Part shown: positions 1,199-4,071 of the stretch, in pieces
Numbering within the stretch: position 1 is the stretch's first letter
Layout: each line of letters opens with the position of its first letter
Assembly (NCBI GenBank): GCA_028695895.1
Contig: JAQVIE010000011.1
Span: forward strand, 1-14,790
Direction of reading: 5' to 3'
Length of the DNA: 14,790 nt
Source: Methanospirillum sp.
GTDB lineage: Archaea; Halobacteriota; Methanomicrobia; Methanomicrobiales; Methanospirillaceae
The notes under the pieces: model-generated
Database searches by the model: none
What the model was told of the DNA's origin: nothing
What the model saw: only the letters and a program-made list of their open reading frames with translations
Translations under genes and position numbers: made by a program

Positions 1199-1831
1199 TC
1201 ATTCATATTCTGGTCTCTTAACGCCTATTCTGCTTTTTCTCATTTCAATTTCAAAACCCTGTCTGATTAACCATTCTTTAGAATGGCCATTATTATGGAT
1301 AAGAACCTCAATCAGATCATCCTTTTCGTCAACATCGCAGTACAACCTGAATGAATCTGTTATTTTGACCATAAGGCCTGTGTTTTTTCCGTATGTGACA
1401 TGTTTTTCAAAACTCATTCCATAATACTGTGCCTGAAACATACTGGCTGATCTTACATAGATTGCATTTGTTCCCCCGCCACGGCCTGGAGCAATTGCAA
1501 GATCCCCGCCTGATGTGAGGAGGGAGATTATTGATGACCTGTCTGCAAGAGCAAGATCTGCCATGATAATTGCCAGGGGTTCATCATTTCCTGCACAAAA
1601 ATCGTTTATTGTCTCATTAAGTCCTTTTTCCTGTATCCTTACAGGGACATCATCAAGTTTTACCGGTGCTGTTGCCAGTATAAGTGGAGAACAATTGGCA
1701 GTTTTTACAGCATTTACCACGTCCCTGAGCATCATGTACGCAAAATTCTGTCTTTCCTCTTCAGTCATTATACAGGAAAGCCTGGTCTTTGGCTGAAGGG
1801 GTTTATATGGAATGACTACTGGTATCTGCAT
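1199..1831 (-). CDS. cofC: 2-phospho-L-lactate guanylyltransferase (F420 biosynthesis)
   Basis: CofC condenses 2-phospho-L-lactate with GTP to give lactyl-2-diphospho-5'-guanosine, which CofD joins to FO to form F420-0. The 210-residue product matches the usual family size. It begins MQIPVVIPYKPLQPKTRLS, the typical nucleotidyltransferase N-terminal loop with a K-TRLS phosphate-binding segment. It continues with a MADLAL acidic motif where the metal-binding aspartate lies, and with APGRGGGTNAIYVR, the conserved GGGTNA loop. ATG 1831 was chosen because homology starts there. ATG 1846 would add five residues, and the open frame continuing further upstream runs antisense into cofG and is not credible. 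No strong Shine-Dalgarno precedes the start. The gene diverges from cofG with 100 bases between start codons, so both may share a control region. Confidence 0.9.
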   Translation of the reverse strand: MQIPVVIPYKPLQPKTRLSCIMTEEERQNFAYMMLRDVVNAVKTANCSPLILATAPVKLDDVPVRIQEKGLNETINDFCAGNDEPLAIIMADLALADRSSIISLLTSGGDLAIAPGRGGGTNAIYVRSASMFQAQYYGMSFEKHVTYGKNTGLMVKITDSFRLYCDVDEKDDLIEVLIHNNGHSKEWLIRQGFEIEMRKSRIGVKRPEYE

Positions 1832-1931: not shown

Positions 1932-3629
1932 ATGTTGCCGGTAATTACATATTCGCGAAATGTTTTTCTGCCTCTCACCTTTGTATGCAGAAATGCCTGC
2001 GGATACTGTATCTTCCGTCGCCCGCCAGGGGAGGGTTGTGTTTTGTCTCCTGATGAGGTTATGAGAATCCTCAGGTGCGGGGCCGGGGCAGGGTGCACGG
2101 AGGCGCTCTTCACTTTTGGGGAACATCCTGAAGAAGTCGCCGGGTTTATGCCCTGGCTGGAGGATTTTGGTTACTCTTCCATCCTTGAGTACTGTTATGC
2201 AATGGCAGAAGAGGCGCTTGCCATGGGTCTTCTCCCCCATACCAATGCAGGGATCATGAATGCTGATGAGATGAGATATCTTTCTGAAGTGAATGCCAGC
2301 ATGGGTCTGATGCTTGAGACAACAGCTGATATCCCTGCTCACCGGAACTGTCCTGGGAAAGAGCCGGCAAGAAGGATTGCCATGATAGAAGATGCCGGCA
2401 GACTGAAAATTCCCTTTACAACCGGGCTATTGCTTGGAATTGGTGAAACTTCGTCTGACAGGAGAGAGTCACTTGAGGTGATTGCCGGTCTTCACCGAAG
2501 ATATGGTCATATCCAGGAGATTATCATCCAGAACTTCTGCCCAAAGCCTGGGACTGACATGAGCGCTTTTCCTGGTGCAACTCTTCAGGATATTCAGGAG
2601 ACTGTCCGGATGGCAAAGGAGATTCTTTCTCCTGATATTGCCATACAAATACCTCCAAACCTGGCGGATGCTGCCAAAGTTATCCCATGCGGGGTCACAG
2701 ATCTTGGTGGTATTTCCCCGGTGACAATTGATTATGTAAACCCTGAACATCCCTGGCCTGCTTTGGATGAACTCAGGGTTCTTACTAAAGGGTATACACT
2801 CAAAGAACGGCTCTGTATACACCCTGAGTATATAAGGAGAGGATGGTTTCATCCAGGGCTCAGGGATTGTATCAAAAACCTTGAGAACGCAGTACATATG
2901 AGAGGTACATCCGTGATACCGGCAAAACCCCTGTACGAGGGGAAAGCAAAATCAGTATATTCCAGCGAAAAACCTGATGAACTGATTGTTGTCTTTCGAA
3001 ATGATATGACCGCTTTTAACGGGGTCAAGCATGACAAGTTTACTGGAAAGGGTAAACTGAATGCAACGGCGTCCGAATTCTTCATGAAGATGCTGGAGGC
3101 CGAAGGGATTCCTACTCATTTTATCAGGATGTCTGCGCCTGATACCATGATCGTCCGTCGTCTGGAGATGATCCCTCTTGAGGTCATTGTCAGGAATGTA
3201 GCTGCTGGTTCCATGACAAAGAAGTATCCGGTTGCTGAGGGGACAGTACTTGACTGGCCGGTTGTCACTATGGACTACAAGGATGATGAACGGGGAGACA
3301 CGATGATCAATGATGATCTTATCCAAGTTTTTCATATCCTGACCGCCGAAGAACTCATACAGGTAAAAAAGATGGCCATGGATGTGAACAGGGTTCTTAG
3401 CCGGTTCTTTGATGAGTGCGGTATAAGGCTTGTTGATTTCAAGCTTGAGTTTGGAAAGGCAGCAGGAACCATCTACCTTGGTGATGAGATAAGTATGGAT
3501 TCCATGCGTCTTTGGGACAAGGTGACCGGAGAGTCATTTGACAAGGATGTGTACAGGTTTGATAAGGGCGATGTTATCACCGCATACCGTAATGTTCTTA
3601 AAAGGATTATTCCGGATGTTGAAATGTAG
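1932..3629 (+). CDS. cofG/purC: CofG-PurC fusion: FO synthase subunit 1 joined to SAICAR synthetase
   Basis: One uninterrupted 565-residue frame. Residues 1 to about 325 are CofG, the radical-SAM subunit that with CofH makes the deazaflavin FO. Seen: the [4Fe-4S] motif CRNACGYC (C19, C23, C26) and the C-terminal block GGISPVTIDYVNPEHPWP followed by ERLCIHPEYI. Residues about 328-565 are a complete PurC, which joins CAIR and aspartate with ATP in purine synthesis. They start at PLYEGKAKSVY and carry both family signatures: IPLEVIVRNVAAGS (about 414-427) and LVDFKLEFG (about 500-508). Each half has near-normal length, so neither looks decayed. ATG 1932 was chosen because CofG homology starts at MLPVITYSRN; AGGT lies a few bases upstream. 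The 40 codons open before it show no family likeness. No stop separates the halves, and the linker is almost absent. Whether this fusion occurs in other genomes I cannot tell. Confidence 0.88.
   Translation: MLPVITYSRNVFLPLTFVCRNACGYCIFRRPPGEGCVLSPDEVMRILRCGAGAGCTEALFTFGEHPEEVAGFMPWLEDFGYSSILEYCYAMAEEALAMGLLPHTNAGIMNADEMRYLSEVNASMGLMLETTADIPAHRNCPGKEPARRIAMIEDAGRLKIPFTTGLLLGIGETSSDRRESLEVIAGLHRRYGHIQEIIIQNFCPKPGTDMSAFPGATLQDIQETVRMAKEILSPDIAIQIPPNLADAAKVIPCGVTDLGGISPVTIDYVNPEHPWPALDELRVLTKGYTLKERLCIHPEYIRRGWFHPGLRDCIKNLENAVHMRGTSVIPAKPLYEGKAKSVYSSEKPDELIVVFRNDMTAFNGVKHDKFTGKGKLNATASEFFMKMLEAEGIPTHFIRMSAPDTMIVRRLEMIPLEVIVRNVAAGSMTKKYPVAEGTVLDWPVVTMDYKDDERGDTMINDDLIQVFHILTAEELIQVKKMAMDVNRVLSRFFDECGIRLVDFKLEFGKAAGTIYLGDEISMDSMRLWDKVTGESFDKDVYRFDKGDVITAYRNVLKRIIPDVEM
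2901..2915 (+). promoter_or_regulatory. Internal Shine-Dalgarno and GTG at the cofG/purC junction
   Basis: AGAGGT (2901-2906), spacer ACATCC, then GTG (2913-2915) in the CofG-PurC frame. The match to the archaeal 16S anti-Shine-Dalgarno and the 6-base spacing are as good as those of real starts in this window (for example GGAG-6-GTG at 286 and GAGGAG-5-TTG at 6793). It sits at the boundary between the two enzyme domains. Confidence 0.5.
2913..3629 (+). CDS. purC: Possible internally initiated, free SAICAR synthetase (PurC half of the fusion)
   Basis: A nested start would give a 238-residue PurC of ordinary length, catalysing SAICAR formation in de novo purine synthesis. The start would be GTG 2913, with AGAGGT at 2901-2906 six bases upstream. 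This is a strong Shine-Dalgarno match exactly where a stand-alone purC would begin. ATG 2898 is also in frame but lacks a comparable site at proper spacing. The reading frame is the same as cofG, so this product would be made in addition to the fusion, not instead of it. This is inference from the site; the fusion remains the primary call. The arrangement could be a remnant of two separate genes whose intervening stop codon was lost. Confidence 0.35.
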   Translation: MIPAKPLYEGKAKSVYSSEKPDELIVVFRNDMTAFNGVKHDKFTGKGKLNATASEFFMKMLEAEGIPTHFIRMSAPDTMIVRRLEMIPLEVIVRNVAAGSMTKKYPVAEGTVLDWPVVTMDYKDDERGDTMINDDLIQVFHILTAEELIQVKKMAMDVNRVLSRFFDECGIRLVDFKLEFGKAAGTIYLGDEISMDSMRLWDKVTGESFDKDVYRFDKGDVITAYRNVLKRIIPDVEM

Positions 3630-3777: not shown

Positions 3778-4071
3778 ATGGGAGATCCTGTGGCAGAGAC
3801 TGAAGATGAGATAAGAAATTGGGCGCTGGAGTATTCCCGATCAAAAGGGTGGATCCTGAGTCCGGATGAGAAGCATAATAATGCAGTTATTAAGGGATTA
3901 GCCCGTAATTCTGAAAAGAATGGGGAACGATATTGTCCTTGTCGCGTCAGGTCCGGAGATAAAGAAAAAGATAAGGCGATAATTTGTCCTTGTGAATATC
4001 ATGTACATGAACTTGAACAGGCTGGTCATTGTACTTGTAATTTCTTTTACGATCCTGAATTCCTTTCATGA
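3778..4071 (+). CDS. Ferredoxin:thioredoxin reductase-type catalytic (beta) subunit
   Basis: A 97-residue soluble Fe-S protein of the FeThRed_B family. These use a [4Fe-4S] cluster beside a redox-active disulfide to pass ferredoxin electrons to thioredoxin-like partners. The full cysteine pattern is present: CPC, then CPC about 16 residues on, then H-VHELEQAG-H and CTC, i.e. the three CxC motifs of the family. N-terminal EIRNWALEYSRSKGWILSPDE also fits. There is no variable (alpha) subunit nearby, as expected for non-photosynthetic homologues, and no fused rubredoxin domain. The start is uncertain. ATG 3778 has a TATA-like ATTATATTG (about 3745-3753) placed for a leaderless transcript, whereas GTG 3790 has GGAGA with good spacing and would remove four residues. 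It converges with the next gene. The physiological partner is unknown. Confidence 0.88.
   Translation: MGDPVAETEDEIRNWALEYSRSKGWILSPDEKHNNAVIKGLARNSEKNGERYCPCRVRSGDKEKDKAIICPCEYHVHELEQAGHCTCNFFYDPEFLS

Follow-up and report, generated by a model that had tools for sequence, protein, structure and literature searches.

A single gene joining cofG and purC lies on the forward strand of a Methanospirillum sp. contig, within the 14,790 nt stretch of DNA that we analyzed (the window, Table 1). CofG, the 7,8-didemethyl-8-hydroxy-5-deazariboflavin synthase, is a radical-SAM enzyme of the F420 pathway, and PurC is SAICAR synthetase. Reading positions 1932-3629 gave one open frame of 565 codons that contained no internal stop and ended in TAG, which agrees with the preliminary description of this DNA, as does the calculated mass (there put at about 63 kDa). 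Upstream of 1932 the frame stays open back to an ATG at 1812. We took ATG 1932 as the start because each of the seven fused genes described below has the context of this codon, M-x-x-V-I-T-Y-S-R-N.

Table 1. Features of the cofG-purC locus, numbered from the first nucleotide of the window.
Feature	Position	Strand	Remarks
cofC	1199-1831	-	divergent, about 100 nt before cofG-purC
Whole fused ORF	1932-3629	+	565 aa; computed mass 63.26 kDa
CofG domain (radical SAM)	1932-2873	+	fusion residues 1-314
Junction between CofG and PurC family models	2874-2927	+	residues 315-332; TIGR03550 end (314) to TIGR00081 start (333)
11 codons with invariant third positions in 7 fused genes	2892-2924	+	alignment columns 315-325
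Shine-Dalgarno-like GAGGT	2902-2906	+	kept in 7/7 fused genes
GTG in frame, proposed start codon of free PurC	2913-2915	+	GAGGT, 6 nt, GTG; residue V328
PurC (SAICAR synthetase), C-terminal part of the fusion	2913-3629	+	TIGR00081; also the predicted free product, 238 aa
FTR beta gene	3778-4071	+	follows cofG-purC

Both parts of the protein scored above the curated cut-offs of their NCBIfam families. The CofG part matched TIGR03550 with 444 bits (cut-off 213) over residues 6-314, covering positions 1-321 of the 322 of the model, and the PurC part matched TIGR00081 with 231 bits (cut-off 190) over residues 333-541. The Pfam assignments were in agreement, with PF04055 in the former and PF01259 in the latter. 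The radical-SAM motif CX3CX2C is present in the CofG part as CRNACGYC, starting at C19. Read from the GTG at 2913, PurC has a computed mass of 27.14 kDa, and its nearest solved relative by sequence is 2yzl/2z02 (E 4.5e-70). The substrate-contact residues listed in PMC3261824 (K11, K13, R94, S100, D175, E179, R199 and R215) were located by adding a fixed 327 to each position, a shift derived from the 2gqr hit of the structure search rather than from a residue-by-residue alignment, and all of them were present; a histidine stands at the position of Gln69, matching what the same source gives for archaea. Judged by these features, both halves look functional, as the preliminary description had held in calling them intact. 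It had also seen almost no linker between them, and indeed the gap between the family models amounts to 11-18 residues, depending on the choice of CofG model.

cofC is divergent beside cofG in the six Methanospirillum loci examined (L033-L036, L038 and L063), and the gene for ferredoxin:thioredoxin reductase (FTR) beta was found downstream of purC in 27/27 loci checked, which had been chosen from 79 for having both domains; in L038 only its first part lies within the locus, and in L051, L058 and L059 it follows about 1 kb further down. Elsewhere in the order, PurC is itself fused without a stop to FTR beta (genome G171, locus L133 at G171:C11:30401-31447, proteins P0229 and P0238). These proteins have 348-349 aa and carry PF01259 together with PF02943, and G171 was the only full-length, stop-free case among the matches listed for 231 genomes of the order. 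The PurC-FTR beta fusion suggests that neighbours in this cluster fuse easily, perhaps neutrally.

We examined how widely the cofG-purC fusion is distributed. The stop-free fused frame was found in seven of the 12 genomes of the genus (G000, G001, G003, G006, G009, G010 and G011). Four others (G002, G004, G005 and G008) carry separate, overlapping cofG and purC genes, and in the twelfth, G007, a contig end cuts within cofG. Close relatives are not uniformly unfused; had they been, the preliminary description would have counted this against the fusion. The same fused frame occurs in named records, L034 being M. hungatei M59 and L035 M. stamsii Pt1, and the protein P0004 is named M. purgamenti. 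Two of the fused genomes, G001 and G003, are single contigs. We found no second close cofG or purC in either of them, the other matches being weak (E 1e-8 to 3e-7) and covering the CofG part only, so neither enzyme is likely to come from any gene but the fused one. One of the fused proteins departs from the rest within PurC: L006 (G009) has SMDSMRKKKKKTGE at a place that reads SMDSMRLWDKxTGE in the five further Methanospirillum fused proteins compared. This is probably an assembly or read error in G009.

An order-wide search of 232 genomes returned full-length, stop-free matches in eight, the seven from Methanospirillum and G024, which belongs to a different genus of the same family. Single proteins spanning both domains, which the preliminary description had suggested looking for in archaeal genomes, thus do exist. 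Among the matches listed, the remaining genomes of the order gave either separate matches or a full-length match interrupted by stops, and no stop-free fusion appeared in families f2-f6. Across 392 genomes of the phylum (order members included), the matches listed, with E up to 1e-100, contained stop-free full-length cases only in G000 and G010. At the protein level, both Pfam domains were present in at least 11 proteins, counted among the best 120 of 8000 candidates scored, and protein databases already contain the 565-aa protein; the fused P0006-P0008, P0010 and P0012 are known here as proteins alone. The two genes are neighbours even where they are not fused. In a sample of 61 genomes, all 44 with two separate matches had cofG and purC adjacent on one strand (<200 nt apart) and 14 gave a single full-length match, so that adjacency held in 58/61 relatives searched. 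It did not hold in G007, which is cut by a contig end, in G013, where the pieces fall on separate contigs (two), or in G016, which lacked a strong match.

To place the fusion in the history of the family we used a tree of CofG with 45 rows, which did not include the rows G018, G033, G045, G041, G051 and P0055. The fused label required three changes on this tree, two of them forced by well-supported branches, a count that by itself cannot separate gain from loss. Three fused groups were apparent: the Methanospirillum clade; G024 with P0013; and P0012. P0010 (561 aa) is the basal fused protein on the tree. Two facts led us to read the changes as gains: the order is for the most part unfused, and the three groups differ in their junction residues. 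The tree thus suggests two or three separate fusions from an adjacent gene pair. The nearest unfused row, P0014, stands beside the fused rows of Methanospirillum with moderate, not starred, support. The metagenomic protein P0013 reads CRNRYHYC in its CofG part, with a tyrosine for the second cysteine of CX3CX2C. Loss of a radical-SAM cysteine in this type of fusion was considered and dropped, since the closely similar genome G024 reads CRNRCHYC.

We then compared the junction in fused and unfused frames. The four unfused sisters carry a Shine-Dalgarno-like site for purC within the last codons of cofG, GAGGT in three and GAGGA in G004. Their cofG genes end in GAG AGA GGT ATG CTA TGA (3/4) or, in G004, in GAG AGA GGA ATG CAA TGA, and the final TGA shares nucleotides with the ATG of purC (ATGA), which lies 5 nt behind GAGGT or GAGGA. 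At the same place the fused genes read AGA GGT (A/T)CA T(C/T)C GTG ATA CCG. Aligned by codons, GTG 2913 corresponds to the ATG at which the unfused Methanospirillum genomes start purC, and each stands five codons before the residues PLY. GAGGT and the start codon are separated by 6 nt in the seven fused genes as opposed to 5 nt in the unfused ones, a comparison between living sequences and not with a reconstructed ancestor. Because the spacer is one nucleotide longer, cofG and purC share a frame, and the TGA is left out of frame as GTGA; this TGA would be a relic of the ATGA overlap of the sisters. An internal start at the ATG at 2898 was ruled out, as G010 has ACG and G011 has AGG in its place. 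Outside the genus, the fused junction of G024 has an in-frame ATG located 8 nt behind GGTGA (6 nt behind GAGG). P0010 reads EVAHVVP where the others have RGTSVIP. Judged from the protein sequence, with EVAH replacing RGTS, the motif may have moved or disappeared in P0010, a point against a conserved internal start. Glu-Val in P0010 could itself spell GAGGT in a shifted frame.

We wondered whether the junction is conserved beyond what the protein would require. In a codon alignment of the seven fused genes (560 codons), 79% of third positions are variable overall. The longest run of invariant third positions comprises 11 codons and lies at the junction, the next longest being 4, while the amino acids differ in 6 of these 11 columns. 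Only 1 of 100,000 column permutations reached a run of 11; the permutation treats columns as independent, though the seven genes are related and G003 and G009 are 97% identical. The run remained 11 when the near-duplicate G009 was left out. Over the 21 pairs of fused genes, pS was 0.00 at the junction compared to 0.63 in CofG and 0.60 in PurC, and pN was alike in the three regions (0.096, 0.076 and 0.079, respectively). The wider linker (columns 300-325) had a pS of 0.21 and a pN of 0.17. We also considered the 147 windows of 11 codons having at least five variable amino-acid columns. Outside columns 305-335 they contained at most 4 invariant third positions, compared to 11 at the junction. 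Two sets of three pairs each showed 0 third-position differences at the junction, where the means for 11-codon windows were 10 and 15. The signal was weaker when restricted to columns with invariant amino acids, in which a run of 7 was observed and 250 of 20,000 permutations reached 6 or more. These data demonstrate that, among the fused genes, the DNA of the start region itself is frozen.

The seven fused genes hold 219 in-frame ATG, GTG or TTG codons, 19 of which lie 4-9 nt behind a Shine-Dalgarno 5-mer, scored against what we take to be the archaeal anti-Shine-Dalgarno sequence. The junction GTG was the only one of the 219 with a Shine-Dalgarno site kept in 7/7 genes. The end of cofG is also well conserved in the unfused sisters, though not outstandingly: its last 12 third positions include 10 invariant ones, and no run in the gene exceeds 5. 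The mRNA around the GTG is only mildly more open than the average of the gene, and in G001 it is not: on average 29% of windows were equally or less structured, against 56% in G001.

These observations make it probable, in our assessment of the sequences, that the bifunctional CofG-PurC frame keeps a working internal start (GAGGT, 6 nt, GTG 2913) and also yields free PurC. Ribosomes that have translated cofG would continue through into purC to give the 63 kDa CofG-PurC, and other ribosomes would initiate at GTG 2913 to give a free PurC of 27 kDa. We lean, somewhat less firmly, towards the fuller scenario of a nested two-product gene encoding two unrelated core enzymes, in which the frames merged and the purC ribosome-binding site and GTG were then kept by selection; free PurC subunits would occur alongside CofG-PurC, and the two may assemble into mixed PurC oligomers that carry CofG. 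The fusion probably arose as an almost neutral substitute for translational coupling rather than for channelling. The preliminary description missed the conserved purC-type start within the joined frame, which changes the likely products of the gene. We regard this frozen start as more important than the fusion itself, which matters little on its own, because a single archaeal gene is then predicted to yield two proteins. The fusion has seemingly been caught after the loss of the stop with the downstream start still under selection. There is also a practical side to this. In line with an internal start, public gene calls already divide the fused frame, with a separate PurC beginning at differing internal codons (P0122, P0123 and P0125). 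P0122 and P0125 sit on contigs that match those of L033 and L036 in length, and the sequence of P0123 agrees with that of G001. Public records for the clade hence conflict, giving either a fusion of about 565 aa or a separate PurC of about 240 aa, and annotations should be used with caution.

A less likely explanation, though one to be taken seriously, is an obligate bifunctional fusion made at full length only, with the frozen codons serving RNA structure or the speed of translation at the domain border, or being conserved by chance. Domain fusions without internal starts are common, the second start is argued for by DNA-level conservation alone, and the openness of the mRNA at the GTG is unremarkable. 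Moreover, a Shine-Dalgarno site and a start codon together would not fill the whole of the frozen stretch, which counts against an internal start. An obligate fusion, however, does not readily account for a pS of 0.00 over 11 codons whose amino acids vary, nor for the precise coincidence of these codons with the site where the unfused sisters begin purC.

Selection for a coupling of F420 synthesis to purine synthesis, whether the physical tie of the preliminary description or a regulatory one, appears improbable as the reason for the fusion. The adjacency of cofG and purC in 58 of the 61 relatives and the two or three fusions suggested by the tree are in line with such coupling. To our knowledge, however, CofG and PurC have no common substrate, and the link between them via GTP, at which the preliminary description let the two pathways meet, is many steps long. 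Families f2-f6 of the order were without a stop-free fusion among the matches listed, and PurC is also fused to FTR beta in another genus, as if cluster neighbours fuse easily. A functional tie between the two pathways would have to be inferred, and nothing found here supported channelling or co-regulation.

We give very little credence to a further explanation, in which translation follows the long frame but a +1 slip at the junction TGA sets CofG free by itself. GTGA is present in 7/7 fused genes behind the Shine-Dalgarno-like motif, but no slippery codon run was seen at the junction and the TGA can be explained as a relic of the ATGA overlap of the sisters. An assembly or sequencing artefact concealing a stop between cofG and purC, for which the condition of the window's own genome assembly (319 contigs, 76% complete) might speak, was ruled out because the same stop-free frame recurs in seven independent genomes of the genus, among them the single-contig G001 and G003, and in metagenomic proteins.

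The preliminary description knew of no reported CofG-PurC fusion. In fact, Brown et al., 2011 (PMC3261824) describe one in M. hungatei, Mhun_1253, with a domain order and genus identical to those of the present fusion. As explanations they offer a regulatory radical-SAM domain or co-regulation, and they note that several other archaea have purC behind a radical-SAM gene. They found the fusion in one species only, and section 12 of their paper leaves the origin, the recurrence and an internal start undiscussed. Beyond Mhun_1253, our analysis adds the seven genomes of the genus and G024, two or three likely origins and the frozen internal start region. A search of one open-access library for the locus tag Mhun_1253 found only PMC3261824, and purC is unmentioned in the passages of PMC2686161 consulted. 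The fusion itself has thus been known since 2011; for the internal purC start we found no report in that open-access library.

CofG and PurC are each known from other fusions. FbiC (CofG-CofH; NCBIfam PRK09234, CofGH) also contains CofG, but its partner CofH belongs to the same pathway, in contrast to the purine enzyme found here. Accordingly, the CofGH model (849 positions) matched the CofG part only, with 365 bits against a cut-off of 1018. In the animal PurC-PurE protein (ADE2, PDB 2h31) PurC is likewise joined to another enzyme, presumably the purine enzyme PurE, and there PurC is N-terminal, occupying chain residues 10-233 of 425.

For the proposed mode of translation, the closest parallel is Cas11b of Haloferax volcanii, which is produced from within cas8b by means of an internal in-frame start with a possible Shine-Dalgarno motif and is called the first experimental proof in archaea in PMC11899642. 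Cas11b is proven by experiment and is a component of CRISPR interference, whereas the two products of CofG-PurC are predicted, are both metabolic enzymes and are encoded by separate genes in relatives. If true, cofG-purC would follow Cas11b as another archaeal example of translation from an internal in-frame start, in this instance in core metabolism.
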